A stretch of DNA of 64,000 bases, from assembly GCF_011006175.1 (NCBI RefSeq), contig NZ_CP048795.1, positions 1,666,491 to 1,730,490 of the forward strand, in the 5' to 3' direction. The position numbers were made by a program, and so were the translations under genes. The stretch comes from Hydrogenobacter sp. T-8 (GTDB lineage Bacteria > Aquificota > Aquificia > Aquificales > Aquificaceae). Positions 27,711 to 45,662 of the stretch are shown piece after piece. Below the pieces are notes generated by a model. It was not told where the DNA came from and searched no databases. It saw only the letters and a program-made list of their open reading frames with translations. Positions within the stretch are counted from its first letter, which is position 1; each line of letters opens with the position of its first letter.

Positions 27711-28525
27711 CCCTTGACGGAAAAACTCAAGTCTATGGCATACTGGGTTACCCGGTAAAACATTCCCTCTCCCCAGTTTTTCAGAACAAGGCCTTTGAGC
27801 ATTTCTCTATAAATGCGGTCTATGTTCCCTTTGAAGTGAAACCTGAAGAGTTTGAGACTGCCTTTAGAGGCTTGAAAGCTCTTGGTATAAAGGGCGTTAA
27901 CATAACGCTTCCCCACAAGGAGAAAGCCCTTGAACTTTCGGACTTCATAGACAGCCACGCACAAGCTATAGGTTCAGCCAACACCCTCAAGATTACAGAA
28001 GAGGGTGTGTATGCCTACAATACAGACTGGGTGGGCTTTCTGAAGGCTGTAAAGAAATTGACGCCCCAGCTTAGAAACCTAAAAGTCTTGGTGCTTGGTG
28101 CGGGTGGTTCCGCAAGGGCGGTGCTGTATGCCCTGAGGTTTGAGAAAGCTGAGGTTTTTCTATGGAACAGAACAGAGGAAAGGGCAAGAAGGCTATGTGA
28201 AGAGTTCGGATGTTTTCACATTAAAAGGCCAGAGGATGTTTTAGAAGAGGTGGAGCTTATCGTAAACACCACATCCTTAGGTTTAAAGGAAGAAGACCCT
28301 CACATATTTGACTACAAGAAACTTAACCCAAGGCACAGGGTTATGGACATAATCTACAAGGATACCCCACTCCTCAAGTCCGCAAGGGAAAGAGGATGCC
28401 TCTATCAAGATGGTCTTGATATGCTTTTGTATCAGGGTATGGAGAGCTTTAAGATATGGACGGGTTATGATGTGCCTTATGAGGTGGTAAAAAGCTCTGT
28501 GCTTGAATATTTGAATGCCATATAA
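27707..28525 (+). CDS. aroE: Shikimate dehydrogenase
   Basis: 272 residues; reduces 3-dehydroshikimate with NADPH in aromatic amino acid synthesis. GILGYPVKHSLSPVFQNKAF binds shikimate, NITLPHKEKAL holds the catalytic Lys, VLGAGGSARAVLYAL is the nucleotide loop, and WNRTEERA determines NADP binding. Its stop codon overlaps the -10 box of the following gene. Co-transcription with the sulfur genes appears incidental. Confidence 0.95.
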   Translation: MTLDGKTQVYGILGYPVKHSLSPVFQNKAFEHFSINAVYVPFEVKPEEFETAFRGLKALGIKGVNITLPHKEKALELSDFIDSHAQAIGSANTLKITEEGVYAYNTDWVGFLKAVKKLTPQLRNLKVLVLGAGGSARAVLYALRFEKAEVFLWNRTEERARRLCEEFGCFHIKRPEDVLEEVELIVNTTSLGLKEEDPHIFDYKKLNPRHRVMDIIYKDTPLLKSARERGCLYQDGLDMLLYQGMESFKIWTGYDVPYEVVKSSVLEYLNAI

Positions 28526-28526
28526 T
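28521..28526 (+). promoter_or_regulatory. -10 box of the HARP gene
   Basis: TATAAT overlaps the aroE stop codon (TAA 28523-28525). Twelve bases separate it from ATG 28539, leaving a 5' leader of about 5 bases without a proper ribosome site. The convergent RNA ligase gene has the same TATAAT with a 12-base gap at its own start. Confidence 0.4.
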
Positions 28527-28538
28527 TAATATGCAGGG

Positions 28539-29120
28539 ATGGAATCTTTTGTTTTAGATACAAGCGTATTTACCAATCCAGATGTATACTCACAGTTTGA
28601 GAAAGACCAGCTCGGTGCTATAGAAAACTTTATAACTCTTGCATCTCACAGCAGAGCAAAGTTTTTTATGCCCACCTCTGTTTATGAGGAGTTCAACAAG
28701 ATGGTAGAGCTCGGAAGTCTAAAGCCAAGGTTTGAGCTTGCGGTAAGGATTCGCTCTCCAAGGAGGTTTAACCTCATGGTTCCTGCGGAGTTTCTATATG
28801 AGTTCATAGAGGAGGTGCGCTACAGGATAAACAAGGGACTAAGGATAGCGGAAGAGCATACAAAAGAGGCTGGAAGACTTGCACAGGAGGATGTGGGAAA
28901 ACTCATAAACAAGCTCAGGGAGAAATACAGAGAGGCTCTGAGGACTGGGATAATAGATAGCAAAGAAGACCTTGATGTGCTTTTGCTTGCCTACGAGCTT
29001 GATGGCATCCTTGTGTCTGGTGATGAGGGTCTCAGAAACTGGGCGGACAAAGTGGGCATAAAGCTCATAGACCCAAGGAGTTTTAGAGTAATACTTGAAA
29101 GCTACGCACTTAGAACCTAA
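28539..29120 (+). CDS. HARP: protein-only RNase P (RNA ligase partner protein)
   Basis: 193-residue PIN-domain nuclease of the HARP family (homologues of Aquifex RNase P), which removes 5' leaders from pre-tRNA without an RNA subunit. Conserved acids are at D7 (FVLDTSVF), D140 and D144 (DSKED) and D162 (SGDEG), corresponding, allowing a 2-residue offset, to the catalytic acids I recall for Aquifex Aq_880. The middle (about 85-135) is the helical protrusion, [22 protein letters not shown] onward. Databases often label the family RNA ligase partner because it sits beside a Pab1020-type ligase, exactly as here (convergent, 4-base overlap). Confidence 0.9.
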
Positions 29121-30214
29121 TCTATAAGAGAGCCACCTTTTAAAAGGTGTCCCAGAAGCCCTGTCATATTAAGGAAAACCTTTTCAAACTCCAAAAGCCA
29201 AAACTCTCCTTCTTGCCTTAGTGATAGCTGGTTTACCTGTATGTGGACGGATGCATGTTTCATCTGTTCCATGAATATTAGGGCGTTTTCCCTTTTTCTA
29301 AACTTACATCTAAATACCCTACGGACTTTACCTTCTTCCCTTGCCATTTTACATGCTTGAAAAAGACCGCTCAAAAAGGCCTCTCCAAGCTCTCTGAAAA
29401 GCTCTTGAGTTTTTTCCAAACCTTCCTCTTCTATAAACAAGGCAAGCCTTAATAGCCTGTTGGTGTAGTAGTCTGCGGGAATTCCGAGCATATTGAGAGA
29501 CGTAATCCTTATATCGTTAAGATTGGCGTAGCTGGTAATATACTTTACTCTTTTATCCCTCTCTGAGTCTTCCTTTAGAACCACGCCTTCCCTTTTTTCC
29601 TCATTTAGCCTTCTGAGGAGAGCCTTTAGGTCTTCTATCTGCTTTGGAGTGTATAGTCCATACCTCTCCACGCTGGGAAGGTTGTATTTTTCAATAAGCC
29701 TTAGCTTTTCCCTGTAGGGCAGGAAACCTTGACGGTTTTTTTGCATTATATCAAAGAGGAAAAACTTCACATCCTCTTTCACATAGGGAGGGCTTTCCTC
29801 CACGTAGGGGTTTTCAGGTCCTGCTACTTCCATGCATAACACGAGGTCTGGATTTTCCTCAAAAAAGACTGGGTCTATGAAGTCCAGAACCCTGTCGGTG
29901 CTGAAGGCACACACATAGCCTCCTCTTGTGAGGGCATATATTTCCCCTTCATGCATAAAGACCCTAACGTTGTAACCATCTACCTTCTCCTCAACCCAGA
30001 AAGGGGCTTGGAACTGCTCTGGTATGCCTGTGGTGAGCTGAAATATTCTACCTATATGTGGATAACCCCATAAAATGTTATCTTTGAAGAGGAGGGTGCC
30101 ACGGGGCACTTCTTTAAAGTCGTCAGTAAACCTCAAATACTCAAGGTTTCCAAAGGTTTCGCTCCTTAGCTTATTTTTCCTGAGGGCCTCTTTTAAGGTT
30201 TCTTCTGCAATCAT
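29117..30214 (-). CDS. RNA ligase, Pab1020 (Rnl3) family
   Basis: 365-residue ATP-dependent nucleotidyltransferase that joins or circularises RNA. Motif I is VEEKVDGYN with adenylated Lys at 77, motif III-like [13 protein letters not shown], motif [12 protein letters not shown], motif V KYITSY. The C-terminal helical domain (about 250-365) is the dimerisation part of this family. The natural substrate is unknown. TATAAT lies 12 bases before its ATG and no ribosome site is seen. The 3' end overlaps HARP by 4 bases, which keeps the two as a conserved pair. Confidence 0.88.
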
Positions 30215-30226
30215 ATACAGGTTTTA

Positions 30227-30232
30227 ATTATA
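30227..30232 (-). promoter_or_regulatory. -10 box of the RNA ligase gene
   Basis: TATAAT on the minus strand (30232-30227) ends 12 bases before ATG 30214. There is no Shine-Dalgarno sequence between them and no good -35. The predicted leader is about 5 bases. Confidence 0.4.
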
Positions 30233-30256
30233 ATTTCTTTTTGGTGGAGGTGAGGC

Positions 30257-31108
30257 GTGAAAAGTTTACACTTTGAGGGTTTTAGCTCCCTAGCCCATTT
30301 TTTAGTCTTTATACTGCTTATGCTATTCCTTGTTTTTGCAGGCAACCCTTTGGTTGTTGTGCAGTCTGGCTTTGTGGGTGTAAAGAGAACCTTAGGTAAG
30401 ATTGACCCAGTGCCACTAAGGGAGGGTCTGCACCTTAGAATTCCTCTTTTGCAGACAGTGGAAAAGATAGAGATAAGGACAAGGGCTGTGGAGTTCACAA
30501 AAGAAAAGCAAAACCCCATAAGCAGTCTTTCTAAGGATGGTCTACCTGTTAATATGGATGTGGCGGTGCTTTATAGAGTTGACGCTAACAAAGCCCCAGA
30601 GCTTATAAGAGAATACGGACCTGACTACGAGGAGAAAATAATAAAGCAGATAGTGAGGACTTCTGTAAGGGATGCCATAGCGGAGATGGAAAGCTCTGTA
30701 GTTTACCAAGAGAGACAAAAGCTACAAGAGAAGATAAAAAGGGAAGTTAGCGAGCAACTTACAAGAAGATACCTAATTCTTGAGGATGTGCTTATAAGGG
30801 ACATAAGGCTTCCAGAGAGCGTGGTTAAGGCAATAGAGGAAAAGCGAAAAGCCTATGAAGAGGCTCAAAGGATGCAGTTTCTTTTAGAGAAGGAAAAGCT
30901 TGAAGCGGAGAGGAAAAAGGTAGAGGCTCAAGGTATAGCGGAAGCCAACAGAATAATAGCAGGCTCGCTAACAAGGGAATACCTCATGTGGAAGTTTATA
31001 GAAAACATCCAAGAATACGCCAGAAGCCAGAACAACACTATAATACTCCTGCCTTACGATACGAGGATGACGCCTATAATAAATGTCCCTCAGGGAGGTA
31101 AAAGATGA
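30257..31108 (+). CDS. SPFH/prohibitin-family membrane protein
   Basis: 283 residues. One N-terminal transmembrane helix (about 15-37, FLVFILLMLFLVFAG) is followed by the SPFH domain (VVQSGFVGVKRTLGKIDPVPLREGLHLRIPLLQTVEKIEIRT) and a long charged coiled coil (about 190-240). It resembles prohibitin and HflC/HflK, which form membrane rings around FtsH-type proteases. It starts at GTG 30257 with GGAGGTGAGG upstream. The next gene overlaps by 4 bases. Confidence 0.85.
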   Translation: MKSLHFEGFSSLAHFLVFILLMLFLVFAGNPLVVVQSGFVGVKRTLGKIDPVPLREGLHLRIPLLQTVEKIEIRTRAVEFTKEKQNPISSLSKDGLPVNMDVAVLYRVDANKAPELIREYGPDYEEKIIKQIVRTSVRDAIAEMESSVVYQERQKLQEKIKREVSEQLTRRYLILEDVLIRDIRLPESVVKAIEEKRKAYEEAQRMQFLLEKEKLEAERKKVEAQGIAEANRIIAGSLTREYLMWKFIENIQEYARSQNNTIILLPYDTRMTPIINVPQGGKR

Positions 31109-32481
31109 TAAAGTTTGGCACAGACGGATGGAGAGCCATAATAGGTGATACTTTTACCTTTGAAAACGTAAGAAAGGTAGCCTACGCACATGCAAAGGTC
31201 TTAGAAAGGCAAGGGAAAAAGAAGGTGGTGGTGGGCTACGATAATCGTTTTATGTCAGAAAGGTTTGCTCTTGAAGTTTACAGGGTTTTTAAAACCCTGG
31301 GCTTTGAGTGTTATCTTAGCATAAAGTCTTGCACCACTCCTATGGTCTCCTTTGCGGTTAAGTATATGGGCTTTGACAACGGAGTTATGATAACTGCGTC
31401 GCATAATCCACCAGAATATAACGGATATAAGATAAAGGACTCCTTTGGTGGCTCTGCTACTCCAGAGTTTATAGCACGGGTAGAGGATGAGATAAAAAGG
31501 TCAGAGGATATAAAACCAGAGAAGTTTGAACCAGAGTATGTAAACATCTGGGGAGAGTATATGAGGGAGATAAAGAGAAGGGTAAGTATGGAGCTTTTTA
31601 GTCAAAAAGACCTTTCTCTGGTGCACGATGCCATGTATGGTTCTGCTCTTGGCACATACTCACATGTGCTATCTGGAACAAGAGTTTCAGTAAGCAGTAT
31701 AAGAAGCTACAGAGACCCACTCTTTGGAGGACATGCACCAGAGCCAGTAGAGAAACACCTTGAACCTCTCATTATGAAAGTTAGGGCTGTGGGTGCAAAC
31801 CTTGGCATAGCCAACGACGGAGATGGAGACCGTATAGCCTTGGTGGATGAAAAAGGGAACTTTATAAACTCACAACTTATTTATGTGCTTTTGCTCTATC
31901 ACCTTTTGAAAAACAAGGGCAAAAGAGATGGCGTGGTGGTAAAGACCGTGTCCACCACATACTTGGTAGACAGGATATGCAGGAAGGAGGGTGTTGAGCT
32001 AAGAGAGGTGGCGGTTGGCTTTAAGAACATAAATGAGGTAATCCTTAGGGAAAAGGTCATATTCGGCGGTGAAGAGAGCGGAGGCTACGGTATTGTGGAC
32101 TTTTTACCAGAAAGGGACGGGCTTTTTGCGGGTCTTAATATACTGGAACTTTTAATCCTGAAAGACAGTCCACTCTCTGAGATAATATCAGAAATATTCA
32201 GGGAATACGGAGAGGCATATTTCAGAAGGATTGACCTTCATGCGGAGGAAGATAAAAAGCAAAGGCTTAAGGAGCTCATAGAGAACCCACCAGAAAGGTT
32301 GGGCGACCTTAAAGTTGTAAAGACTATAACTCTGGATGGTCTAAAGCTGATTTTTGAAGGAGATGGGTGGGTGCTTTTTAGAGCCTCTGGCACAGAACCC
32401 CTTATAAGGGTCTATGCAGAGATGCCCAGCAAGGAAGGGACAGAACAAGTCCTCACGAAGGCGGTAGAGCTTTTCGATTGA
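31105..32481 (+). CDS. Phosphoglucomutase/phosphomannomutase
   Basis: 458-residue alpha-D-phosphohexomutase. KFGTDGWRAIIGD at the start, catalytic phosphoserine loop ITASHNPPEYNGYK, metal loop NDGDGDRIALVDE, sugar loop GGEESGGYG and phosphate loop RASGTEPLIRVY are all present. It interconverts hexose 1- and 6-phosphates for polysaccharide synthesis. Which sugar is not clear. GGGAGG in the end of the SPFH gene serves as ribosome site. The 3' end overlaps the chaperone gene by 29 bases. Confidence 0.92.
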   Translation: MIKFGTDGWRAIIGDTFTFENVRKVAYAHAKVLERQGKKKVVVGYDNRFMSERFALEVYRVFKTLGFECYLSIKSCTTPMVSFAVKYMGFDNGVMITASHNPPEYNGYKIKDSFGGSATPEFIARVEDEIKRSEDIKPEKFEPEYVNIWGEYMREIKRRVSMELFSQKDLSLVHDAMYGSALGTYSHVLSGTRVSVSSIRSYRDPLFGGHAPEPVEKHLEPLIMKVRAVGANLGIANDGDGDRIALVDEKGNFINSQLIYVLLLYHLLKNKGKRDGVVVKTVSTTYLVDRICRKEGVELREVAVGFKNINEVILREKVIFGGEESGGYGIVDFLPERDGLFAGLNILELLILKDSPLSEIISEIFREYGEAYFRRIDLHAEEDKKQRLKELIENPPERLGDLKVVKTITLDGLKLIFEGDGWVLFRASGTEPLIRVYAEMPSKEGTEQVLTKAVELFD

Positions 32482-33145
32482 CAAAACCACACTCCCAGGT
32501 GGAACCTTCAAGCATCTCCCTTCTATACTCTGTGATGTCCAGTATACCTTTTATTTCCTGTCTTTCTCTGTCAAGGAAGGAGCGCATTAGCTTAGACATA
32601 AGCCTGTAGTATTCCTCTTGAGTTTCTCCTTCAACAAGTTGGCAAAAGAGCCTATACCACCTTCCGAGATGTTCCCTGAAGAAATCCTCATAACCTTTAC
32701 CAGCTATCTCCTTCTTCTCTACTTCGTCAGCGTGGACCTTCTTTAAAAGCAACAGGCTCAAAAACTCCAGCTGTGGAATCAACCCATCTGGTTCATATCC
32801 CTGCTTTACCTCAAGCCCGAAGGCTCTGTAAAAACCTTCTATGTCCGCAAGCTCGTGGGCTTTCCTTCCCGCCTTCTCAAGCTCATATGCGGTCTCCCAG
32901 TTTGGTACCTTAAGAGATGTGATAAAGAGGGAACTCCACTCACACTGAAGGTCTAAAAGCCTCTCTTCCCTTTCGTAATCTTGCAGGCAGGTTTTCATGG
33001 CATTAATGTCAAAGTCGATGCCAAGGCTTTTAAGACATAAGGATAGGTCATCAAGAGCCTCTTTCAAAGTCTTCAGCGTTTCCTCCCCCGGATACTCAAA
33101 AGCCAACGATAGAAACCTGTAAAGGAAAGCTTTATAAAGCTCCAT
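32453..33145 (-). CDS. TorD/DmsD-family molybdoenzyme chaperone
   Basis: 230 residues, all-helical, cytoplasmic. The family core is QCEWSSLFI, then EPDGLIPQLEFLSLLLLKK and YEDFFREHLGRWYRLFCQLV. Such chaperones hold the apo-catalytic subunit until the molybdenum cofactor is in place and proof-read Tat export. It is last in the operon with the alpha, beta and gamma genes, one base after the gamma gene, so it should serve that enzyme. Confidence 0.85.
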   Translation of the reverse strand: MELYKAFLYRFLSLAFEYPGEETLKTLKEALDDLSLCLKSLGIDFDINAMKTCLQDYEREERLLDLQCEWSSLFITSLKVPNWETAYELEKAGRKAHELADIEGFYRAFGLEVKQGYEPDGLIPQLEFLSLLLLKKVHADEVEKKEIAGKGYEDFFREHLGRWYRLFCQLVEGETQEEYYRLMSKLMRSFLDRERQEIKGILDITEYRREMLEGSTWECGFVNRKALPPS

Positions 33146-33146
33146 C

Positions 33147-33983
33147 TTACTCTATCCTCAACTTTATCCATGAATAGCTTAAAGACTTTCTCGCACCAAC
33201 CTCTCCGTTAGAGCCGTCCCATACCGCAAAGCTGACAAAAGTTTCCTTGCCAGGTCCCCACTCGGGGTTTGAAGTGCTCTCCTCTACAAAAGCCCTTTTT
33301 ATAACCACATACCATTTCCCATTTCTATATACACCTTTGCCTTCTGCTCCCTGTATATCCTTCCACGTGGAAGATCCATAGCCCTCTGCTACCACCTCCC
33401 TTACCGGTGTGTTAAAGGTGTTCTTTCTGAAAACCTTTTCACCCCCTATATAGTTCAGAGCATACTGATTAGCCCAGTTCTCAGGGTACTTATATGGTGG
33501 GTCTGCATGGGGATACCAGTCGTAAGCATAATTAGGGTATATCTTGGCGGTATCAGAATAGCCCTTTTCTATATTCTCTTGTCTGAAGGCTGCCCAGTGT
33601 AGTATTAAGACCCTCTGTCCCTTGTCTCCCATAGTTATTGGAACATCTGCGGATGGCCTGTAAGGAATTTGAATTGCTACCGCATCAGAGAATTTACCTA
33701 TTAAGTGAAACCTATCTTCGGTTTTATCGGACCAAACTAAATGGAAAGCTATGTTTTTACCATCATTAAGACATTTGACAGAAATACTCGTTATTGAGGG
33801 CTTAAGTTCCATTGGAGGCACAACCGCCTGACCACTGAGAGAAATATCTACAGGCTTGATATTTGTCCACGCCTTATCAAGCGGGTCCAGTGGAAGGCTT
33901 TTTACTCTTTTGCATACTATCTCTTGAGAAAAAACAACACCTGAAAGCACAAGTCCTAAAATTAAAGCTCCTGTATATCTCAT
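33147..33983 (-). CDS. Gamma subunit, haem b protein of a type II DMSO-reductase-family enzyme
   Basis: 278 residues with a Sec signal peptide (about 1-19, ending VVFSQ). The body, LDKAWTNIKPVDISLSGQAVVPPMELKP and then NIAFHLVWSDKTED, matches the EbdC/SerC/NXR gamma type, which binds one haem b in the periplasm, usually through Lys and Met. It would pass electrons between the beta subunit and a soluble cytochrome. Strong ribosome site AAGGAGGAGG. Only two Cys, no CxxCH. Confidence 0.82.
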   Translation of the reverse strand: MRYTGALILGLVLSGVVFSQEIVCKRVKSLPLDPLDKAWTNIKPVDISLSGQAVVPPMELKPSITSISVKCLNDGKNIAFHLVWSDKTEDRFHLIGKFSDAVAIQIPYRPSADVPITMGDKGQRVLILHWAAFRQENIEKGYSDTAKIYPNYAYDWYPHADPPYKYPENWANQYALNYIGGEKVFRKNTFNTPVREVVAEGYGSSTWKDIQGAEGKGVYRNGKWYVVIKRAFVEESTSNPEWGPGKETFVSFAVWDGSNGEVGARKSLSYSWIKLRIE

Positions 33984-33997
33984 GGCTAACCTCCTCC

Positions 33998-35110
33998 TTA
34001 AGGTATATCTTGTCTTACTACATCTAACTTTTCATCCTTGTGAGGTCTGTGTTGGATAGGCTCAACAATAGGAACTCTGACTATCTCCTTTCCTACCTCA
34101 TCGTATGCTATAACTTCATTACCAACTACTTTGAAGGTATGAGGTATCCTTGGAGTTGAACCAAAAAGGTGCAAAAGTGCCTGAAGCTCTGGCTCTTTGC
34201 CTTCTCTCATAGCCATATAGGTCTTTACTGCGTGCTCCGCACCAGGTCCAAACATCTGTTTTAGGAAACTTAGAGGGACATTTATGGGTGGAATATAGTA
34301 AACATTAGGCTCAAGACCGCTTTGAGGATAGAGCGGTAGGGCAACCTTTTTTACATGAACCAGAAAGTCTATAGGGTTATCAGGTTTTGCATTTTCAGGT
34401 GGGTTTATAAAGCCCATAAGCCTTATCTTACCTATACAGGTTATAACGCACTGAGGCTGGTAGCCATCTTCTACCCTTGGAAAACATCCAATGCACTTTT
34501 GGGAAATTCTTGCTACAAAGTTGAAGTGTGTTTTCTTGTAGGGACAGGCTCTTATGCATTCTTGATAACCTTCACATCTTTCTGGGTCTATAAGTACAAT
34601 ACCGTCTTCCTCCCTCTTATATATTGCCTGTCTTGGACAGGCGGCGACGCATGCGGGGTACGTGCAATGATTGCATATTCTTGGAAGGTAGAACATCCAT
34701 ATTGGATGGGGAAGATTTTCAAGGACAGTTCCCACATCAACAGGTTCATTAACCTCATCCTCACCTACATTTGGATACATCCAGTCAAGTTCATCTGGCT
34801 TCCATCCAAGGACCACTTCCCCCTCTGGTGCATCGAAAACCGTTTTCTTATTGCCATCAAGAAGTTCGAGAAGCTTTATGTCCCAACCAAGTGGATAAAA
34901 GCCCCAGGGCTTTGTCTCTACATTGTTCCAAAGCATGTACTCTTGACCTCTTCCCGGAGTCCATGTAGTTTTACAGGCAACAGTGCATGTCTGACAGGCT
35001 ATGCATTTGTTAAGGTCCATAACCACGGCGAACTGCTTTTGGGGTCTCTTAGGCTCGTAGGGATAGTTAACTTCCCTTCCAAGTTGCCAATTGTAGGCTT
35101 TATATACCAT
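33998..35110 (-). CDS. Beta subunit, four-cluster iron-sulfur protein (NXR/NarH type)
   Basis: 370-residue electron-transfer subunit. Cys groups in order: CIACQTCTVAC (36-46), CNHCTYPACVAACP, CEGYQECIRACP and CIGCFP with QCVITC, enough for four Fe-S clusters. It has no signal peptide, so it is expected to be carried out with the Tat-targeted alpha subunit. Size and motif order match the beta subunits of periplasmic nitrite oxidoreductase, selenate, chlorate and ethylbenzene-oxidising enzymes. AGGAGGTGAG precedes the ATG. It starts 13 bases after the alpha gene. Confidence 0.88.
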   Translation of the reverse strand: MVYKAYNWQLGREVNYPYEPKRPQKQFAVVMDLNKCIACQTCTVACKTTWTPGRGQEYMLWNNVETKPWGFYPLGWDIKLLELLDGNKKTVFDAPEGEVVLGWKPDELDWMYPNVGEDEVNEPVDVGTVLENLPHPIWMFYLPRICNHCTYPACVAACPRQAIYKREEDGIVLIDPERCEGYQECIRACPYKKTHFNFVARISQKCIGCFPRVEDGYQPQCVITCIGKIRLMGFINPPENAKPDNPIDFLVHVKKVALPLYPQSGLEPNVYYIPPINVPLSFLKQMFGPGAEHAVKTYMAMREGKEPELQALLHLFGSTPRIPHTFKVVGNEVIAYDEVGKEIVRVPIVEPIQHRPHKDEKLDVVRQDIP

Positions 35111-35123
35111 GGCTCACCTCCTT

Positions 35124-38100
35124 TTAAATAAACTTACCTTGCAGATACTTCTTAAGAGCTTCTGAAGCAGTTGTGGGTCTAAAGCCCAGTCTTACCGGCC
35201 TCCACAGCCCCTTACCACCTATTCCACCATCCTCCGCCTTGCTTATCTTACAGAAGCCCTCTCTTGGAGCACCTATAAGTCCATGCACGTCAAGCTCAAA
35301 GCCCTTTCCTATTATCTGACCCATAAGGTTCTTCCTTATCAAAGTATCAGTCTGGTATGTAGGCTTGAACCATCCCCTTGTAACAGACTGATGGCTTCCG
35401 CGCCTGTAGAGGGACTGGTAGTTAGTATCTGGGTTCTTTGCCATACCGTCTTTTCTTGCCTTTGTCCCCCTTACAGTTCCGTGAGATGAGCCATACATGT
35501 TGAACCATATCTTGGCACACCCCGGTGGTGTATTGTTAGAAGCGCGTGCCCTAAGAAGCAGTCTGCCAACCTCGTAATCTTCTTTTCTTTTCTGCCAACC
35601 TTCAAAAGGTCTATCCTGAGGGTCTGCATCCACGTAGACGTAATCACCATCCTGTATACCCATTTTCTGAAGGTCCTTAGGGTTTATGTCTATGTATGCT
35701 TCAGAAATAAAGGGCATCCGCTTGTCATGTCTGTATATGTCCCCAAAGGGTCCAAAAAGAAGCGTAGTTACGTCCGTATCCCCTGTAGTTGTATGTGCTG
35801 CATGTCTATATTTGGGTGTATGAACTATGTGGCTTGCTCCTACGGTTACTATGAGTGGATGCTTTGTTCCGGGTAGCTTTTCTGGTTCTATAAGTACATT
35901 CCTTGCCTGACGCCATTCTGTGTTTATAAGAGCGTCTTTACTGCTTATTCCATAATCCTCTGGCTTCTTAGGTTTTAGAAGTGGATGCGGTTTTGCCACG
36001 ATTACATTGGGTTCATAATGAGTTGAGTCTATTGGTTCTCTGTATATTGGAAGGTTCTCCCCGGCGTTTATAAACTCATCCTCTTCTCTGTAAAACTCAA
36101 GCCTTCCACTTTTGGTATACCATGGCATGCTTTCCTTTGTTTGGTCTTCGCCCACATATTTGGGATAACTTCTTGTCATTATAAGCGATGGTATACCTTC
36201 GTGAGCTTTTTTAGCTATATCTTCGAGCTTGTATCCTCTCAAGTTTGATGAGGCGTTTATAACTCTTTGAACATAAACCACATCCTGCTTTCCTTCTAAC
36301 ACAAACTTCCAGTAGTTTCTAAACCTTTCGTCTCCTGTAAGTTCTGTTAGCCTATTGGCAACAAGGGCAAAGGTTTCCGCATCGTTTTTTGTGTCAAAGA
36401 ACCTCCTGTGTCCTGTCTTTGGCCATACATACACAAAGGGATTGGTAACAGAGCCTGCTATATCCCAATATTTGTTTTCATTCCATGCATCTACGCCTAA
36501 GACTATGTCCGAGTATTCGCATGTAAGGGACCACCACCATTCATTGGTAATTATACATTCTATCTTTGGAAGCGTGTTCATTATTATGTTATATTTCCAT
36601 TTGGCGTTACCAAGGGCTGAATTAGCATCTACAAACCATATGAATTTTGTCGGCGTTGGCATATGGGTTTTGCCGGTGATAAGATGTTCACCCATATACT
36701 GGGGATGGTCGTCATGGGAGTAATAGTGGGCGGATTCAGGCTTCCAGTAAAACCTTACCTTTGCAGGCTTTTTTGGGTCAAGCTCTATATTGAAGGGGTC
36801 CTCCGCAAGATATTGCGGTGCTCCATTAAATAGGGCTAGCCTAAAGTTTCCCGCATACGAGCCTATGTTTCCAGTAGCATGACCGATGTTGTCTGTAAGG
36901 GCACATATCATATACATAGCTCTGTCTTTCAGGTCCGCATGCTGATACTGATTTACACCCATACCCTGAGCCAGCTTCATATTTCTTGGATGTTTTGCTA
37001 TCTCCCTTGCAAGGCTCTCTATTTTTTTCGCTGGAACGCCAGTTATTATCTCAGCTTGCTTGGGCGTATAGCTACTTTCAAAGAACTCAAGGTAAACTTG
37101 AAAGAGAGGCTTTACTTGAACCTCCTTACCATCCACAGTCTTAACCTTATAGCTTCCAGTCAAAGCTGGGTCTATACCAAGCTTCCAGAAATCTTCACCT
37201 ACATCATCCCTCGTTATAACCTTTGGAGAATTGGTTTTTGTGTCCCAGACCACAAAGTCGTTCATATCCTCATTTCTTATCCGCTCTGGGACATACTGTT
37301 TGTCCTGTTTGTAGAAGGGGGGAAGTGTTTCACCGGGCTTAAAGACAACCGCCTTTTTAAGCGGTTGAGGTTTGTAGTTAGGTATGATATCCCTCGCCCT
37401 CAATAACTTTCCATTGTCCATCCTGACGAGCAGTGGCATGTCGGTAAAGCTCTTCACATATCTTTCCTGATAGAGTTTTTCTTTCATTATTACGTAGGCT
37501 ATTGATAGGGCAAGTGCGGTGTCCGTTCCAGTCCTAACAACAATAAGCTCATCCGCAGCCCTTGCTGTAGGTGAGTAATCATTGGATATGACTACAACCT
37601 TTGACCCCTTTATCCTTGCTTCTGTAAGCCAGTGGCAATCGGGCATCTTTGTGGTAAAGGGGTTCATACCCCAAAGGATAAGGAGCTTAGAATGCTCAAA
37701 CATACAGAGGTCAAACTCCACATTCTGTTGCCCAGTAACCATGGGATGCCCGGGGGCAAGGTCAGTGTGGAAGGCGTAGTTATCCCATCCTCTCCCGCCA
37801 AGAGCTTTATCTGGACCAACACCCCTAATATGGCTATCAAGAAGAGCCATCATGTTTGCCATTCTGTAGGGAGACGTATACCTTATGACCGCAAGAAATG
37901 GCATGCTACCCCTAAACTTGAGAACCCTTGTCCCAGCCCCTTCCATGGCATCAAGCATTGGCTTTGGATAGTGTCCTTGTGCCTCAAGCCTTTTCCTTCC
38001 CTCCTCTCCTGAGTATGTGGTCGCTATGTTTATCATCGTTTTTGCTATTATGTCTGCAACTTCATCCCATGTAACTTTTATGAACTTATCCTTACCTCTC

Positions 38101-38588
38101 TGAAAGTATTTCTCTGGTGGCTTGCCCGTATTTGGGTCCCTTGGAAAACCCGCTTTATACCATTCATAAAAACCTCTCCTAACCATGGGACCCTTTACTC
38201 TTCTGTCCCCGTAGAACCTTCTCATAAGAGCTAAGCCCTTATTACAACACCTTGGGTCCCATCTATGAGAGGCCTTAAGCCCATAGATGTCTGTTGCCTC
38301 ACCAAATTTATATGTAGGTTCTATCCTTGTTATGACGCCATTTTTTACGTAGGCTGTTAAAAGGCAGTTATGTGTATCGTTAGGAGCGCACAGAAAGACA
38401 AAGGAAGACTCTGCACGGTATATATCTCTATAAAATCTCTCCCAATCTCTGTTTGGATAGTAGGAAAGTGGATTTTCTACCTTTACAACTGGCTCAAAGA
38501 CCCTTATGGCCGAAAAGGTAGGGCTTGAAAGGGAAGCCAAACTCAGAACTCCAACCTTTAAAAGCTCTCTACGATCGATGGCTCCCAT
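35124..38588 (-). CDS. Tat-exported molybdopterin oxidoreductase alpha subunit, resembling periplasmic nitrite oxidoreductase NxrA
   Basis: 1154 residues. A Tat signal (DRRELLKVG, residues 5-13, then a hydrophobic stretch) shows export. The N-terminal cluster site reads C67-x3-D71-x3-C75 with C114/C115 further on; NarG has H-x3-C-x3-C. A candidate Mo-ligand Asp is D276 in HTDLAPGHP. Segments such as YTSPYRMANMMALLDSHIRG and GQQNVEFDLCMFEHSKLLILWGMNP resemble, from memory, NxrA of Nitrospira and anammox bacteria and relatives in Hydrogenobaculum. Substrate could be nitrite/nitrate or another oxyanion. First gene of a four-gene operon with a consensus promoter. Confidence 0.85.
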   Translation of the reverse strand: MGAIDRRELLKVGVLSLASLSSPTFSAIRVFEPVVKVENPLSYYPNRDWERFYRDIYRAESSFVFLCAPNDTHNCLLTAYVKNGVITRIEPTYKFGEATDIYGLKASHRWDPRCCNKGLALMRRFYGDRRVKGPMVRRGFYEWYKAGFPRDPNTGKPPEKYFQRGKDKFIKVTWDEVADIIAKTMINIATTYSGEEGRKRLEAQGHYPKPMLDAMEGAGTRVLKFRGSMPFLAVIRYTSPYRMANMMALLDSHIRGVGPDKALGGRGWDNYAFHTDLAPGHPMVTGQQNVEFDLCMFEHSKLLILWGMNPFTTKMPDCHWLTEARIKGSKVVVISNDYSPTARAADELIVVRTGTDTALALSIAYVIMKEKLYQERYVKSFTDMPLLVRMDNGKLLRARDIIPNYKPQPLKKAVVFKPGETLPPFYKQDKQYVPERIRNEDMNDFVVWDTKTNSPKVITRDDVGEDFWKLGIDPALTGSYKVKTVDGKEVQVKPLFQVYLEFFESSYTPKQAEIITGVPAKKIESLAREIAKHPRNMKLAQGMGVNQYQHADLKDRAMYMICALTDNIGHATGNIGSYAGNFRLALFNGAPQYLAEDPFNIELDPKKPAKVRFYWKPESAHYYSHDDHPQYMGEHLITGKTHMPTPTKFIWFVDANSALGNAKWKYNIIMNTLPKIECIITNEWWWSLTCEYSDIVLGVDAWNENKYWDIAGSVTNPFVYVWPKTGHRRFFDTKNDAETFALVANRLTELTGDERFRNYWKFVLEGKQDVVYVQRVINASSNLRGYKLEDIAKKAHEGIPSLIMTRSYPKYVGEDQTKESMPWYTKSGRLEFYREEDEFINAGENLPIYREPIDSTHYEPNVIVAKPHPLLKPKKPEDYGISSKDALINTEWRQARNVLIEPEKLPGTKHPLIVTVGASHIVHTPKYRHAAHTTTGDTDVTTLLFGPFGDIYRHDKRMPFISEAYIDINPKDLQKMGIQDGDYVYVDADPQDRPFEGWQKRKEDYEVGRLLLRARASNNTPPGCAKIWFNMYGSSHGTVRGTKARKDGMAKNPDTNYQSLYRRGSHQSVTRGWFKPTYQTDTLIRKNLMGQIIGKGFELDVHGLIGAPREGFCKISKAEDGGIGGKGLWRPVRLGFRPTTASEALKKYLQGKFI

Positions 38589-38622
38589 GGTTCACCTCCT
38601 TCTGATTAAAGTCATATTCCTA

Positions 38623-38651
38623 ATTATAAGCTACTATTATGTTAATGTCAA
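38623..38651 (-). promoter_or_regulatory. Consensus promoter of the NXR-like operon
   Basis: On the minus strand TTGACA (38651-38646), exactly 17 bases, TATAAT (38628-38623): both hexamers match the vegetative consensus fully. The ATG (38588) is 34 bases beyond the -10 box, and AGGAGGTG lies before it, so this transcript has a leader, unlike many others here. Strong expression is expected unless an unseen repressor acts. Confidence 0.8.
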
Positions 38652-38672
38652 GGTTTTAATTTCTTTATATTT

Positions 38673-39329
38673 TTATCTTAAAATTTCACCATCCCTCATC
38701 TCCACCACCCTTCTAGCTTGCTCCGCCAATTCAAGCTCGTGGGTTACCATCACTATGGTAGTGCCTTGAGAGTTTATCTCTTTGAATATCTCCATGACCG
38801 CTTGGGTGTTTTTGCTATCTAAGTTTCCCGTTGGTTCATCCGCAAGTATCACAGAAGGCTTATTCATAAGAGCCCTTGCTATGGCAACCCTTTGCATCTC
38901 ACCGCCAGATATCTGAAAAATCCTTCTCCTTTCCTTTCCACCAAGCCCCAAAGCCCTCAAAAGCTCATAAGCTCTCTCCTCCGCTTGCTTTCTTTCCATA
39001 CCCATCTTTATGGCAGGTAGCATAACATTTTCCAAAAGGGTAAACTCGGGAAGTAGATAATGAAACTGAAAAACAAAACCTATTTTTTTGTTTCTTATCT
39101 CCGATAGCTTTTTCTCGTCGGAAAAATCAACCACTTGACCTTCAAATAAGACCTCGCCCTCTGTAGGTCTGTCAAGAAGACCCATAATGTAGAGCATGGA
39201 GCTTTTACCAGAGCCACTTACCCCTATTATGGCAACAAACTCTCCACTGTATACCTCAAGGTCTATGCCCTTAAGTATCTGCTCTTGACCTATAGACTTT
39301 TTTACACCTCTTAACTCTACTATCCTCAT
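38673..39329 (-). CDS. ABC transporter ATPase, LolD/MacB type
   Basis: 218-residue ATPase. Walker A GVSGSGKSS (36-44), the family signature ISGGEMQRVAIARAL, Walker B VILADEPTGNLD and the switch His in MVTHELELA are intact. The GNLDS wording is typical of the LolD/MacB/FtsE group that drives mechanotransmission rather than import. It pairs with the permease gene upstream (4-base overlap) and the adaptor protein to form a tripartite exporter. Confidence 0.88.
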   Translation of the reverse strand: MRIVELRGVKKSIGQEQILKGIDLEVYSGEFVAIIGVSGSGKSSMLYIMGLLDRPTEGEVLFEGQVVDFSDEKKLSEIRNKKIGFVFQFHYLLPEFTLLENVMLPAIKMGMERKQAEERAYELLRALGLGGKERRRIFQISGGEMQRVAIARALMNKPSVILADEPTGNLDSKNTQAVMEIFKEINSQGTTIVMVTHELELAEQARRVVEMRDGEILR

Positions 39330-40546
39330 TGGCTTCTAAAGATGTCCACAGGGTTTAGTCTACTTGCTCTATAGGATGGGTATAGGCTTGCCAGAAGGGA
39401 AAAGAAGAGAGAAAAGACCAAAGCATACACATAAAAAATGGGACTTCTGTCAAGCACAAAGCCCTTTGTCCTTATAAGACCTTCTACGTCAAGTCTTACA
39501 GACTCAAGGTATTCCTGAATTCCAAAACCCAACAAAGACCCAATTATAGCACCAAGAATCCCTATCACAAAGCCATCCACCATAAAGATAAGAAGGATAT
39601 CTCTCCTCAAAAAACCCATAGCCATTAGAATGGCAATATCCCTTTTCTTCTCTAAAACGGTCATCATTATTATGTTAAAGATACCAAAAGCGGATACAGT
39701 CAGTATGGCAAAGACTATCATGTAGGTTATGATGTTTTGTATTTTGAAGATGCTTAGGAAGTTCCTGTATGCCCTCTGCCAGCTTTCTACCTCGTAGGGT
39801 ATAGACTCTTGGAGTTTCCTTGAAAGTTTTTCCGCATTGTTTACATCTACTATTTTTATCACTATCTCGTTGACCTCCCCTTGCTTTTCCAAAAGGCTCT
39901 GTAGGGTCTTTATGTTTATGTATACCCTCGTGTCATCTATGTTGGTAATGCCAGATTCAAAAAAGTCCTCTACTGTAACCAAAAGAGTCTGTCCGTTGGG
40001 TGCCACTAAGAGAAGTTTTTTGCCTAAGTCTTCTATACCAAGGCTCTTTGCTACAAGCACTCCTATAATAACTCCTGTTCTGTTTGTTTCAAGTCTGTGT
40101 AGGTTCTTATGCACCAAAAACCTTTCTATGATAGATGCCCTTGGCTCTCTTTGTGGGTCAATGCCCAAGAGGGTTGCAGGTTTTTCCTTTACCCCATACT
40201 TCAGGATGCCTCTACTTACAAGTCTTGGTGCTACACCAAGCACCTCTGGGTTCTTTTCTAATCCTTGCAATATATCCTGCCATCCCAGTATTCTGTCCTT
40301 TTCTCTTGGCTTTTCTCCAAGAAGAAGAGCTTTGGGGTCTATCTGCTGACGCTCTTCTCTTGGTTTTATTCTTATATGTGGCTCAAGGTCTATTACTTGC
40401 TGTATAAAATAGTTTTGAAAGCCGAGCATGAGTGAGCTCATTACTATAAAGGCGGAAACGCCTATGGAAACCCCCAGCACGGAGATAAGCGTCTGTCTTT
40501 TCCTTTCAAAGAGGAGTTTGAAGGCTACAAAAAGGACATGCGTCAT
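39326..40546 (-). CDS. FtsX-type ABC permease, MacB/LolC-like
   Basis: 406 residues. The first membrane helix (LISVLGVSIGVSAFIVMSSLM, about 16-38) is followed by a large periplasmic domain and three C-terminal helices (about 275-395) ending with ASLYPSYRASRLNPVDIFR, the FtsX-domain hallmark. With the adjacent ATPase and HlyD-like adaptor it resembles MacAB exporters, but the ATPase is a separate chain. LolCE is the main alternative; the adaptor gene argues for efflux. Substrate unknown. Confidence 0.82.
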   Translation of the reverse strand: MTHVLFVAFKLLFERKRQTLISVLGVSIGVSAFIVMSSLMLGFQNYFIQQVIDLEPHIRIKPREERQQIDPKALLLGEKPREKDRILGWQDILQGLEKNPEVLGVAPRLVSRGILKYGVKEKPATLLGIDPQREPRASIIERFLVHKNLHRLETNRTGVIIGVLVAKSLGIEDLGKKLLLVAPNGQTLLVTVEDFFESGITNIDDTRVYINIKTLQSLLEKQGEVNEIVIKIVDVNNAEKLSRKLQESIPYEVESWQRAYRNFLSIFKIQNIITYMIVFAILTVSAFGIFNIIMMTVLEKKRDIAILMAMGFLRRDILLIFMVDGFVIGILGAIIGSLLGFGIQEYLESVRLDVEGLIRTKGFVLDRSPIFYVYALVFSLFFSLLASLYPSYRASRLNPVDIFRSQ

Positions 40547-41649
40547 GGCACTATAACCTTATCCCCGGGCCTTAGCCCTTCTATTACCTCAAGGTATTCT
40601 CCGTATCTTCTCCCCACCTTTACAGGCACTTTGACCCTTCTCATGCCGTCATACAAAAGCACATAGCCCTCTTGGTAAACACTTGCTGGGATAAGGATTG
40701 CCCTTTTTCTCTCCACTTCTATCTGTCCATCCACCGTTGAGCCATTGGGAAGGTTCTCAGGTAGCTCCGCCTGGACTTTCACAGTGATAAGTTTTCTATT
40801 TCTGTCCACTTCTCTTATTACTTGAAAGACTTTCCCCTCAAACCTCTCATTAGGGTAGGCGTCTACCCTAAGGATAACCCTTTGCCCTTCTCTTAGCATG
40901 CCTGCATACTCTTCATCTACCTCAAGCCAAACCTCCCAACCCTTTGAGCCTATTGAGAAAAGCCTGTTTTCTTGACTTAAATGGTTTATATAATCGCCTG
41001 GGTTTACAAACTTTTTGAGAACATGCCCCTCTATGGGACTTCTTATAACATATTTTTCTCTTTCCTTTGTTAACCTTTCTCTCTCTGCCAAAAGCACCCT
41101 CTCTTCGGACCTGAGGGAAGTTATGGCATCTTGATAAGTGTTTTTTAGTCTTTCATATTCCTTTTGGCTTACCTCATACTGAGTTTTGCTCTGCTCGTAT
41201 ACCTCTTTTGGTATAAGTCCTTGTGAGAAGAGCCTTTCTCTCCTTTCAAGAAGCCTCTTGTTGTTTTCCATGTTTATTTTTGAAGACTCAAGGGCATTTT
41301 CAAGGCTTTTCAGATAGGCAGACCCCTCTTTTAGTCTTTCACGCACAAGATTTAGCCTTTCTGATACCTCTTTTATACTTGCGTCTATGGTTTTTGTATC
41401 TATTATGGCAAGAGGCTGTCCTTTGCTTACAAAATCCCCCTCTTTTACAAGGAGCCTTTCTATGTAGCCAGAGACTTCCGCCTTTACCACCACATAGTTT
41501 TCCGCCTTTGCATAGCCAGAGCCATAAACGAGGGTTTTAACCTCCTCTTCTTTAACAACTGCGTAGTTTTCTTTGTTCCCCTTTACTGCAAAAAAAAGTA
41601 TTAAGCCTGCAAGAAGAAGAAAAGGGAGGGCTATAAAAAGCCTTCGCAT
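40543..41649 (-). CDS. Periplasmic adaptor (HlyD/MacA-like) of ABC efflux pump
   Basis: 368 residues. An N-terminal anchor (about 5-22) is followed by VKAEVSGYIERLLVKEGDFVSKGQPLAIID (lipoyl half), a long coiled coil (about 90-205), VIRSPIEGHVLKKFVNPGDYIN (second half), and the beta-barrel. It links the ABC permease to an outer-membrane channel. No channel gene is adjacent; a TolC-like protein is coded at 17838-19019. It overlaps the permease gene by 4 bases. Confidence 0.85.
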   Translation of the reverse strand: MRRLFIALPFLLLAGLILFFAVKGNKENYAVVKEEEVKTLVYGSGYAKAENYVVVKAEVSGYIERLLVKEGDFVSKGQPLAIIDTKTIDASIKEVSERLNLVRERLKEGSAYLKSLENALESSKINMENNKRLLERRERLFSQGLIPKEVYEQSKTQYEVSQKEYERLKNTYQDAITSLRSEERVLLAERERLTKEREKYVIRSPIEGHVLKKFVNPGDYINHLSQENRLFSIGSKGWEVWLEVDEEYAGMLREGQRVILRVDAYPNERFEGKVFQVIREVDRNRKLITVKVQAELPENLPNGSTVDGQIEVERKRAILIPASVYQEGYVLLYDGMRRVKVPVKVGRRYGEYLEVIEGLRPGDKVIVP

Positions 41650-41662
41650 CCTTGTTATATTA

Positions 41663-42304
41663 TCACAGAACCCCTATCTTCTCCCTCCTGCCTAACACTA
41701 CCAGAATGTCATCTTGAACTATTACCTCTTCAGCTGATGGGTTGACTATGAACTTGTCGCCTCTCTTTATGGCAAGGACTGTCACATCGTATTTTCTTCT
41801 TAAGTCAAGCTCCTTAAGGGTTTTGTTGTGCAGTCTCTGTGGCGGTTTCATCTCAAAGATGCTGTAGTTTTCCGCTATGGGTATTTCCTCTATAAACCCA
41901 CCTACAAGAAGGGAATGAGCAAGTCTTATAGCCATATCCCTTTCAGGGTGTATGACCCTGCTTACTCCAAGCCTTTCAAGTATTCTTCCATGGAGAGGGT
42001 TTACCGCCTTGGCTATTATCTCCTTTATCCCAAGCTCCATAAGTTGGACTACTACCAATATACTTGCCTCTATGTTTTCACCAATGCTCACTATTACCGT
42101 ATCCGCATTGGCAATGCCAGATTCTTTAAGAGCCTTCTCGTCAGTTGCATCCAATATAAAGGCTTGATGAACAAGCTCCGATATTTGTTTGACTTTTTCC
42201 TCATCTATATCACAAGCTATAACTTCCGCACCGCCTTCTGCAAGGGTTTTTGCCACATTAAAACCAAACCTACCGAGCCCTATAACTCCAAAGACCTTTT
42301 TCAT
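41663..42304 (-). CDS. TrkA/KtrA-type potassium uptake regulator
   Basis: 213 residues. An N-terminal RCK domain with Rossmann motif GVIGLGRFGFNVAKTLAEGG and acidic end of strand two (ACDIDEEK) binds nucleotide. A C-terminal TrkA-C domain (about 135-213) ends VVLGRREKIGVL. Single RCK-N/RCK-C architecture is that of KtrA. It gates the membrane protein coded just upstream (4-base overlap). Confidence 0.9.
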   Translation of the reverse strand: MKKVFGVIGLGRFGFNVAKTLAEGGAEVIACDIDEEKVKQISELVHQAFILDATDEKALKESGIANADTVIVSIGENIEASILVVVQLMELGIKEIIAKAVNPLHGRILERLGVSRVIHPERDMAIRLAHSLLVGGFIEEIPIAENYSIFEMKPPQRLHNKTLKELDLRRKYDVTVLAIKRGDKFIVNPSAEEVIVQDDILVVLGRREKIGVL

Positions 42305-43629
42305 AGCAAGAGCCTCGTCTCGGGAAGTTTCACATGACTTGGCTTTTCCTTACCCACTAACGCCAGCATAAAGCCAAGCACACCCACCCTTCCTGCTATC
42401 ATGGTTAGAATTATAAGGAATTTACCAAGCGGTGAAAAGTCCGCAGAAAGGCTAAGTCCCTTGGGATTACCAAGGGAAAGCCCAACGGTGGAGAAGGCGG
42501 AAACCGTCTCAAAGAGAGCTGGGAGAAGTCTTATGTTTTCAAGCTCAGCCAAAAGTGTTGCCATGAAGGTGTTGTAAGCAAAGGCAAGACTGAGCACTAC
42601 CATCGCCCTGTGAACCTGTGCATCTATAAGCCTCCTGCCAAAGACTACCACATCTGGTCTGCCTCTAATGTAAGAGAAAACAGCAAGAAATACAACCACT
42701 GCGGTTATGGTCTTTATGCCACCTCCTGTTCCACCCGGCGATGCACCCACGAACATTAAGTTTATAAGCACAAACTGAGAAGCTTCCGACAGTTTGCTTA
42801 TGTCTATGGTGTTAAAGCCTGCGGTCCTTGCGGATATACTGTGAAACAAGCTTGCCAATATTTTCTCCTCCACAGATAAACCTTTAAACCTCCATATATC
42901 AAAAAGGAGCACGATAAACCCAAAAACTATAAGCACTGCGGAGGATAAAAAGACGAGCTTTGTGTGTGTGGAAAGCCTCCTAACCTCTCCCTTTTTGTAA
43001 AGTATTAGCTCATAGATAGTATAAAAGCCTATGCCCCCAATTACTATAAGAAGGCTTATTACCATATTGACCCATAAGTCTCCCTTAAAGCCCATAAGGT
43101 TTTCTGAGAAAGTGGAAAAGCCAGCGTTGTTGAAAGCGGAAATGGAATGAAAGATGCTTGCAAAGATGGCGTTAGCAGGGTCTTTTAACCTAAAGAGAAA
43201 AGAAGGAAACAAGGCAAAAGCACCAAGGAACTCAATGAAGAAAACTATAGGAATTATCCTCTTTACAAACCTTACAAGCCCGTGCATACCCGGATAGTTA
43301 AAGGACTCAGCCAGTATAAGCCTCTCCCTCAGACCCAATTTCCTTCTTAGGGCTATAAGGAAGTAAGTGGTAAAGGTCATATAACCCAGACCACCAAGCT
43401 GTATGAGAAGAAGGATAATAAACTTTCCAAAAAGGGTAAAATCCTTCTGTGTGTCCAAAACCACAAGCCCTGTAACTGTTGTAGCGGAAGTTGCAGTAAA
43501 GAGAGCATCAAGGTAGCTTATTGGTCTTAGAGTGGAGAGCGGAAGATAAAGAAGTAAAGACCCAGTGAGAATTACTCCAAGGTAGGAAAAGAGCAGTATT
43601 CTGTGAGGCGTCCACTCAAAACCTCGCAT
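42301..43629 (-). CDS. TrkH/KtrB-type potassium channel subunit
   Basis: 442 residues with about ten hydrophobic segments arranged as four M1-P-M2 repeats. Selectivity-filter parts are visible: SATTVTGLVVLD (first), FNNAGFSTFSENL (second), SARTAGFNTIDISKLS (third) and SAFSTVGLSLG (fourth), each with the central Gly. It forms the potassium or sodium-coupled pore with the RCK partner. Its ATG 43629 lies 21 bases from the divergent mnmC2 start. Confidence 0.9.
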   Translation of the reverse strand: MRGFEWTPHRILLFSYLGVILTGSLLLYLPLSTLRPISYLDALFTATSATTVTGLVVLDTQKDFTLFGKFIILLLIQLGGLGYMTFTTYFLIALRRKLGLRERLILAESFNYPGMHGLVRFVKRIIPIVFFIEFLGAFALFPSFLFRLKDPANAIFASIFHSISAFNNAGFSTFSENLMGFKGDLWVNMVISLLIVIGGIGFYTIYELILYKKGEVRRLSTHTKLVFLSSAVLIVFGFIVLLFDIWRFKGLSVEEKILASLFHSISARTAGFNTIDISKLSEASQFVLINLMFVGASPGGTGGGIKTITAVVVFLAVFSYIRGRPDVVVFGRRLIDAQVHRAMVVLSLAFAYNTFMATLLAELENIRLLPALFETVSAFSTVGLSLGNPKGLSLSADFSPLGKFLIILTMIAGRVGVLGFMLALVGKEKPSHVKLPETRLLL

Positions 43630-43637
43630 GTTTACCT

Positions 43638-43653
43638 TAAATTTTATACTGTG
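43638..43653 (+). promoter_or_regulatory. Possible -10 box 7 bases before the mnmC2 GTG
   Basis: TAAATT (43638-43643, four of six consensus bases), 7 bases, then GTG 43651. No ribosome site precedes the GTG. The spacing equals that of other leaderless-type starts in the window and favours GTG 43651 over GTG 43603. Confidence 0.3.
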
Positions 43654-44616: not shown

Positions 44617-44627
44617 GCTACCGGGCC
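44555..44627 (-). tRNA. tRNA-Phe (GAA)
   Basis: 73 bases on the minus strand. Acceptor stem GGCCCGG pairs with CTGGGCC (one G-T pair), D stem GCTC/GAGC, anticodon stem CCCGG/CCGGG around loop CTGAAAA (anticodon GAA), T arm GGCGG TTCGACT CCGCC, discriminator A. CCA is not encoded; the bases after A73 are CTTT. The gene lies antisense to the 3' end of mnmC2 (62-base overlap). A TATAAT box lies 12 bases upstream. Confidence 0.97.
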
Positions 44628-44639
44628 TATGGGGATAAT

Positions 44640-44645
44640 ATTATA
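44640..44645 (-). promoter_or_regulatory. -10 box of tRNA-Phe
   Basis: TATAAT on the minus strand (44645-44640) ends 12 bases before the tRNA 5' end. The -35 match is poor. The same AT-rich stretch may also serve the divergent pentaheme gene. Confidence 0.45.
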
Positions 44646-44662
44646 TATCCAAGGAGGGAAAA

Positions 44663-45562: not shown

Positions 45563-45599
45563 TATAAGTTTTTCTTATAATACTATAAGAAATTGTGCA

Positions 45600-45628
45600 T
45601 TGATTGTGCGTAAGAGGAATTATTAATA
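45600..45628 (+). promoter_or_regulatory. Candidate promoter of the cytochrome oxidase operon
   Basis: The 100-base gap before coxC holds TTGATT (45600-45605), 17 bases and TTAATA (45623-45628). A short direct repeat ATTGTGC at 45592-45598 and 45603-45609 overlaps the -35 and could be a regulatory site. Further upstream, TATAAG and CTTATA around five T form an AT-rich inverted repeat after the pentaheme stop. The coxC ribosome site is AAAGGAGGTAAA. Confidence 0.4.
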
Positions 45629-45662
45629 TTTTTACCCCTACAAGCCTGAAAGGAGGTAAAAG

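Follow-up and report, generated by a model that had tools for sequence, protein, structure and literature searches.

The window analysed here, a 64,000-nucleotide stretch of Hydrogenobacter sp. T-8 (assembly GCF_011006175.1, contig NZ_CP048795.1, forward-strand positions 1,666,491 to 1,730,490), carries an operon for a three-subunit molybdoenzyme and its chaperone, and the function of this enzyme is our subject. Four neighbouring open reading frames (ORFs) with short intergenic gaps occupy positions 32453-38588, exactly where a first-pass annotation made from the DNA letters had placed the gene set; they and the features assigned to them all lie on the minus strand. The alpha gene (35124-38588) encodes a catalytic subunit of 1154 residues from the periplasmic NarG/NxrA clade of type II dimethyl sulphoxide (DMSO) reductases, beta (33998-35110) a NarH/NxrB-like Fe-S subunit of 370 residues, gamma (33147-33983) an EB_dh haem-b subunit of 278 residues and the last gene (32453-33145) a TorD/NarJ-type chaperone of 230 residues. 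A ribosome-binding site of strong consensus, aggaggtg(a), stands just 5' of the alpha ATG (38593-38600). Pfam matches are Molybdopterin (PF00384) for alpha, Fer4_11 for beta, EB_dh (PF09459) for gamma and Nitrate_red_del (PF02613) for the chaperone. The NCBIfam type II DMSO-reductase models TIGR03479/03478/03477/03482 also match, every one under its curated cut-off, and the narG model TIGR01580 scores 163 bits on alpha against a cut-off of 1084.

Alpha begins with a twin-arginine translocation (Tat) signal region (residues 1-30; 38499-38588) whose motif reads DRRELLK, with SRR or TRR in relatives, and gamma with a hydrophobic Sec-like leader; both signal peptides were assigned from motif and hydropathy, without a signal-peptide predictor. 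A hydropathy scan of the four proteins found no stretch of membrane-helix strength past residue 35 (highest 19-residue means 1.39, 0.84, 0.76 and 1.01), and the operon therefore encodes no anchor. There is no NarI-like ORF in it either. The 15 cysteines of beta match the number for three [4Fe-4S] clusters and one [3Fe-4S] cluster. The complete, anchor-free periplasmic heterotrimer with chaperone that had been proposed is thus borne out, as is its assignment to an Aquificaceae-type genome: alphas 65-93% identical occur in metagenome-assembled genomes (MAGs) titled Aquificaceae or Aquificota.

The closest solved chain to alpha is Kuenenia NxrA, matched over residues 5-1154 with an E-value of 1e-270 (phmmer), against 6e-60 for PcrA, 4e-41 for NarG and 2e-37 for EbdA. 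Beta and gamma are likewise closest to NxrB (7b04_A, 5e-108) and NxrC (7b04_C, 5e-20). Since the NxrA match is full-length and alpha orthologues of 53-93% identity occupy all of the best 80 loci listed by one genome-contig scan, the resemblance is not due to chance. In the Kuenenia nitrite oxidoreductase (NXR), the FS0 site is formed by C67, D71, C75 and C115, Asn70 coordinates substrate, Asp275 ligates Mo, and the gamma haem is held by Met155 and Lys305 (PMC8387239). Aligned with Kuenenia, alpha keeps all four FS0 residues at the same numbers, together with N70 (codon 38379-38381) and the Mo ligand D276 (37761-37763), which lies inside a T-D-L motif; the Mo-site residues are intact, as the first-pass annotation had held. 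The gamma ligands, read by eye from the alignment, are M118 (33630-33632) and K266 (33186-33188). The three cysteines and aspartate of FS0, Asn70, the Mo-ligating aspartate and the gamma Met/Lys pair are all common to NXR and its sister clade, and hence not diagnostic of NXR. These comparisons also bear on substrate. Although the type II DMSO-reductase families of gamma and the chaperone also take in EbdC and DMSO_red_II, we regard it as extremely improbable that the enzyme reduces another oxyanion (chlorate, perchlorate or selenate) or oxidizes an organic substrate in the manner of ethylbenzene dehydrogenase. In E-value, NxrA is ahead of PcrA and EbdA by about 210 orders of magnitude or more, the Asn70 kept in alpha is Ile in EbdA, no chlorite dismutase was recognized by eye among the ORFs at 28000-47000, and the PcrA-like and ClrA-like alphas fall outside the clade described next.

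A quick IQ-TREE phylogeny of 51 rows, with the Shimodaira-Hasegawa-like approximate likelihood ratio test (SH-aLRT) as its only support measure, places the window alpha inside a clade of 35 rows (SH-aLRT 100). Its sister is the NXR clade (SH-aLRT 100), whose nine rows are Kuenenia, a single NC10 copy and copies from the Nitrospira phylum; the Nitrospira-phylum rows came from a phylum-level search and are called NxrA from their grouping with Kuenenia. Alpha is 39-42% identical to the NXR-clade copies and falls outside the Nitrospira/Kuenenia NxrA clade, in the sister. E. coli NarZ, two Aquificales NarG, three PcrA-like alphas and the ClrA-like alpha of L160, which adjoins a chlorite dismutase gene, all lie outside the 35-row clade; the L160 alpha sits on a long branch and is grouped with NarG at 82, and the programme flagged long branches among the outgroups. 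The rows exclude SerA, DdhA, EbdA, the Hydrogenobacter thermophilus enzyme discussed below and the NXR of Ca. Nitrotoga, and EbdA and the PcrA structure were compared by phmmer only. Tree and E-values agree with the earlier view that alpha is nearer the periplasmic NxrA of Nitrospira and anammox bacteria than membrane NarG, and the tree check then recommended separates alpha from the (per)chlorate-reductase-like rows it included. A class search around a Brocadiia MAG (six genomes) yielded no further anammox NXR, and in a family search around a locus titled Nitrospira japonica the only NxrA-like alpha was its own copy. In the NC10 bacterium CSP1-5 (L033/L128) two alphas, one from the sister clade (57%) and one from the NXR clade (42%), form a natural pair on a single contig, with about 4.5 kb between them. 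Alphas 75-76% identical to that of the window stand on contigs of three MAGs titled Alphaproteobacteria (L025, L026 and L032); either the gene passed recently between the two groups, Aquificaceae and Alphaproteobacteria, or the contigs are mis-binned.

The residues flanking the Mo-ligating aspartate differ between the sister clades. With 11 duplicate loci left out, the flanks read T-D-L in 94 of 95 members of the window clade, the exception being T-D-T in L077. Every one of the 19 NXR-clade copies has G-D-Q instead, as does Kuenenia; in NarG the flanks are C-D-L or A-D-L. In the passages of PMC8387239 and of one further paper that we searched, we found no mention of a glutamine beside this aspartate, and we claim no novelty for it. 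That Thr/Leu as against Gly/Gln flanks tune the Mo site and mark, or even set, the direction of nitrate reductase (NAR) and NXR, with the window enzyme reversible enough to let an H2-oxidizing thermophile oxidize nitrite under ample O2, seems to us unlikely.

The distribution of alpha follows that of nirS, the gene for cytochrome cd1 nitrite reductase. A full-length alpha was found in five of the 41 genomes searched (G000, G006, where it is interrupted, G010, G012 and G023). We scored nirS as a PF02239 match with E < 1e-100 and the periplasmic NapA as TIGR01706 above cut-off in a combined set of 31 genomes, comprising all 25 Aquificaceae and six order members chosen for having nirS; the unbiased count comes from the 25 Aquificaceae only, and ten other order members stood outside the NapA comparison. 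Seven of the 25 have nirS (G000, G006, G010, G012, G018, G021 and G023). Alpha is present in five of these and NapA in the remaining two (G018 and G021), whereas the 18 Aquificaceae without nirS have neither. NapA is found in all six order members selected by nirS. At genus level alpha and nirS occur in the identical four of 14 genomes, for which the chance figure, uncorrected for kinship, is 1 in 1001. Weak partial PF02239 matches (1e-6 to 1e-8) in G002, G005, G008 and G009 were above the curated cut-off and not scored as nirS. The insert in the G006 alpha (L126, about 2340-2850) follows codon ~166; it encodes a small membrane-type protein on the opposite strand, has an inverted repeat at one end and finds partial matches in G000, G002 and G012. 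A 67% identical fragment in G014 (L016; G014:C1:890352-890480), which covers alpha residues 3-45 only and contains a stop, seems to be all that is left of an alpha gene.

Gene neighbourhoods add to this association in two of the 79 loci examined. In G023 alpha starts 202 bp from a divergent nirS, which is followed by nirN-like and nirJ-like genes, and at L037 a nirS homologue adjoins alpha. NirJ-like radical SAM proteins are encoded at five more of the 79 loci, a weak nirN match at L036 and a NosZ homologue at L027. In the window genome nirS lies in an island ~0.35 Mb from the alpha operon, with genes for NosZ (TIGR04246, 967 bits), NosL, NosD, COX1/COX2-type proteins, nirN and a NirJ-like protein, and a small d1-domain protein comes after; we read the COX1/COX2-type proteins as a putative nitric oxide reductase. 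At L111 (7988-9928) the denitrification island encodes a 646-residue protein that apparently combines a cytochrome b-like membrane part with ferredoxin-type Cys motifs, as judged by eye. The NapA-family matches in the window genome gave no other candidate for a dissimilatory nitrate reductase. Its other molybdoenzymes are FdnG and AioA (both over cut-off), a PhsA-like protein and a 671-residue FdhA/NasC-like protein, which reaches no model's cut-off and which we read as a possible assimilatory nitrate reductase; an ABC-transporter substrate-binding-like ORF lies three genes from its gene. AioA at L175 (1409-4027; G000:C1 about 1142908-1145526) scores 1079 bits with TIGR02693, over cut-off, and follows a 178-residue ORF.

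Kameya et al. (2017, Mol Microbiol 106:129) reportedly characterized a periplasmic NAR from H. thermophilus. The enzyme is placed in the sister clade and reported as a periplasmic nitrate reductase in PMC6050957, and before its NarG no bacterial NarG was known from the periplasmic side (PMC7325909). Because NapA stands in place of alpha in the other nirS genomes, nirS adjoins alpha in G023 and the H. thermophilus enzyme is reported as a NAR, nitrate reduction is favoured: the locus very probably encodes the enzyme with which a denitrifying Hydrogenobacter-like bacterium respires nitrate, a dissimilatory reductase of the NarGH type that is periplasmic and carries haem b in its gamma subunit. 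It would be an already known kind of enzyme, the periplasmic nitrate reductase that performs the first step of denitrification, as described in the close relative H. thermophilus. The first-pass annotation had listed nitrate reduction among its options, and context and literature favour that option; its heading, 'nitrite-oxidoreductase-like', has less support. That the enzyme works physiologically as an NXR, oxidizing nitrite outside the membrane and passing electrons via haem b and cytochrome c552 to an aa3-type oxidase, would fit the nearest solved relative, NxrABC, the c552 homologues and COX1-3 oxidase encoded in the genome, and the inclusion of the NXR of Ca. Nitrotoga in the clade, whose other cultured members had still to be screened systematically for nitrite oxidation (PMC6050957). 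It is nevertheless very unlikely in view of the NapA complementarity and nirS linkage, the T-D-L rather than G-D-Q flanks and the report of the H. thermophilus enzyme as a NAR.

Several points weigh against assignment as a nitrate reductase. Four of the 18 negative genomes (G001, G011, G017 and G020) are only 65-76% complete, kinship among close relatives makes the co-occurrence counts overstate independence, and G006 retains nirS while its alpha is interrupted by the ~0.5 kb insert. Hydrogenobaculum Y04AAS1 was predicted to denitrify, with all genes present, and nitrate reduction was not detected (PMC4668684); Ca. Nitrotoga, of the same sister clade, oxidizes nitrite (PMC6050957); and Kuenenia NXR is bidirectional (PMC8387239). 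The H. thermophilus enzyme is known to us from citing papers, and the genomes searched held no 100% match to H. thermophilus c552 (best 93%). Published accounts also relate anammox NXR to the nitrate reductases of Hydrogenobaculum (PMC8387239) and report that narG and nirS were not found in six Yellowstone Aquificales populations (PMC3665934).

From the signals, ligands and gene content we infer how a nitrate reductase of this kind would be exported, assembled and supplied with electrons. Alpha and beta would cross the membrane already folded by way of Tat, with beta carried along by alpha, and gamma would be exported through Sec; the TorD-like protein would guard alpha until the Mo cofactor is inserted. 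The gamma haem b would be reduced by a donor in the periplasm, in all likelihood a cytochrome of the c type, and from this haem electrons would pass through the four beta Fe-S clusters and alpha FS0 to the bis-molybdopterin guanine dinucleotide Mo held by Asp276. There nitrate would be reduced to nitrite outside the membrane, and the nitrite handed to NirS in the same compartment, so that a nitrate/nitrite transporter would be unnecessary for the nitrate-to-nitrite step.

We surveyed donor genes around alpha in 86 loci, of which seven were dropped as alpha was not called and 55 had 4 kb or more of sequence upstream of the gene. ORFs were called longest-first, a crude procedure that gives spurious antisense ORFs in GC-rich loci, and two pairs are duplicates (L021/L130, the same gene, both Aquificaceae; L033/L128, one gene counted twice). 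A cytochrome b gene and a multihaem cytochrome c gene both precede alpha in 23 of the 55, and a Rieske cluster takes in 12; at L045, for example, a Rieske protein is encoded as well, together with a pyridine-nucleotide Fe-S oxidoreductase. No conserved donor module of this type was seen in the Aquificaceae, where none of the seven loci with that much upstream sequence (six different genes, one being counted twice) carries cytochrome b or a multihaem protein. The Aquificaceae enzyme therefore probably takes its electrons from a soluble c-type cytochrome.

The first-pass annotation had pointed instead to a pentahaem cytochrome and an oxidase about 6 kb from the operon as electron takers. Both are present: the pentahaem gene (44663-45562; five CXXCH motifs and a lipobox-like N-terminus) directly precedes COX3, SCO-like, COX2 and COX1 genes. 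Its distribution is uncoupled from that of alpha, however. Of the 31 genomes 22 have the gene, 18 of these 22 lack alpha, and the alpha-bearing G023 is without it; we therefore rejected the cytochrome and the oxidase as linked partners. This argues against an enzyme that is bidirectional in vivo, acting as a nitrate reductase when O2 is scarce and as a nitrite detoxifier or oxidizer when O2 is present, since the operon has no linked partner for the oxic side. The gamma haem ligands are identical to those of Kuenenia, whose NXR has a Vmax of 1.5 μmol per min per mg for nitrate reduction vs 61 nmol in the other direction (~25-fold, with different artificial partners); on balance such a dual role seems distinctly unlikely.

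Among known systems, the H. thermophilus NAR comes from the same host family and, as cited, the same clade, and shares a Tat-exported NarG and a denitrifying context; compared by description, it differs in being cited as membrane-bound, whereas the window operon encodes no anchor. Kuenenia stuttgartiensis NXR-ABC (PDB 7b04) and Nitrospira-phylum NxrA have the same three subunits, FS0 3Cys/Asp, Mo-Asp, Asn70 and haem-b Met/Lys, but are 39-42% identical, carry GDQ instead of TDL and belong to nitrification or anammox rather than denitrification. The NXR of Ca. Nitrotoga fabula is placed in the same sister clade in print and likewise has a Tat alpha, a beta, a soluble haem gamma with a Sec signal and a chaperone; unlike the window organism as we read it, its host grows by nitrite oxidation. 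This comparison follows the description in PMC6050957, and Ca. Nitrotoga NxrA was not among the best 80 loci of the genome-contig scan. Haloarchaeal pNarGH (Natronococcus plasmid L159, 46% identical over the full length; Haloferax mediterranei, PMC7754194) also has its active site outside the membrane and no NarI, but its clusters are described as including NarB, a Rieske protein, and NarC, a di-haem b protein, as possible donors, and the Aquificaceae operon lacks both. In print, the sister clade is a meeting point of nitrate reduction and nitrite oxidation. Given the complementarity with NapA, similarity alone is a poor ground for labelling such loci nitrite oxidoreductases, and a complete, soluble-looking thermophilic complex with a conserved Mo signature unlike that of true NXRs would offer a convenient test of what sets the direction of the reaction.

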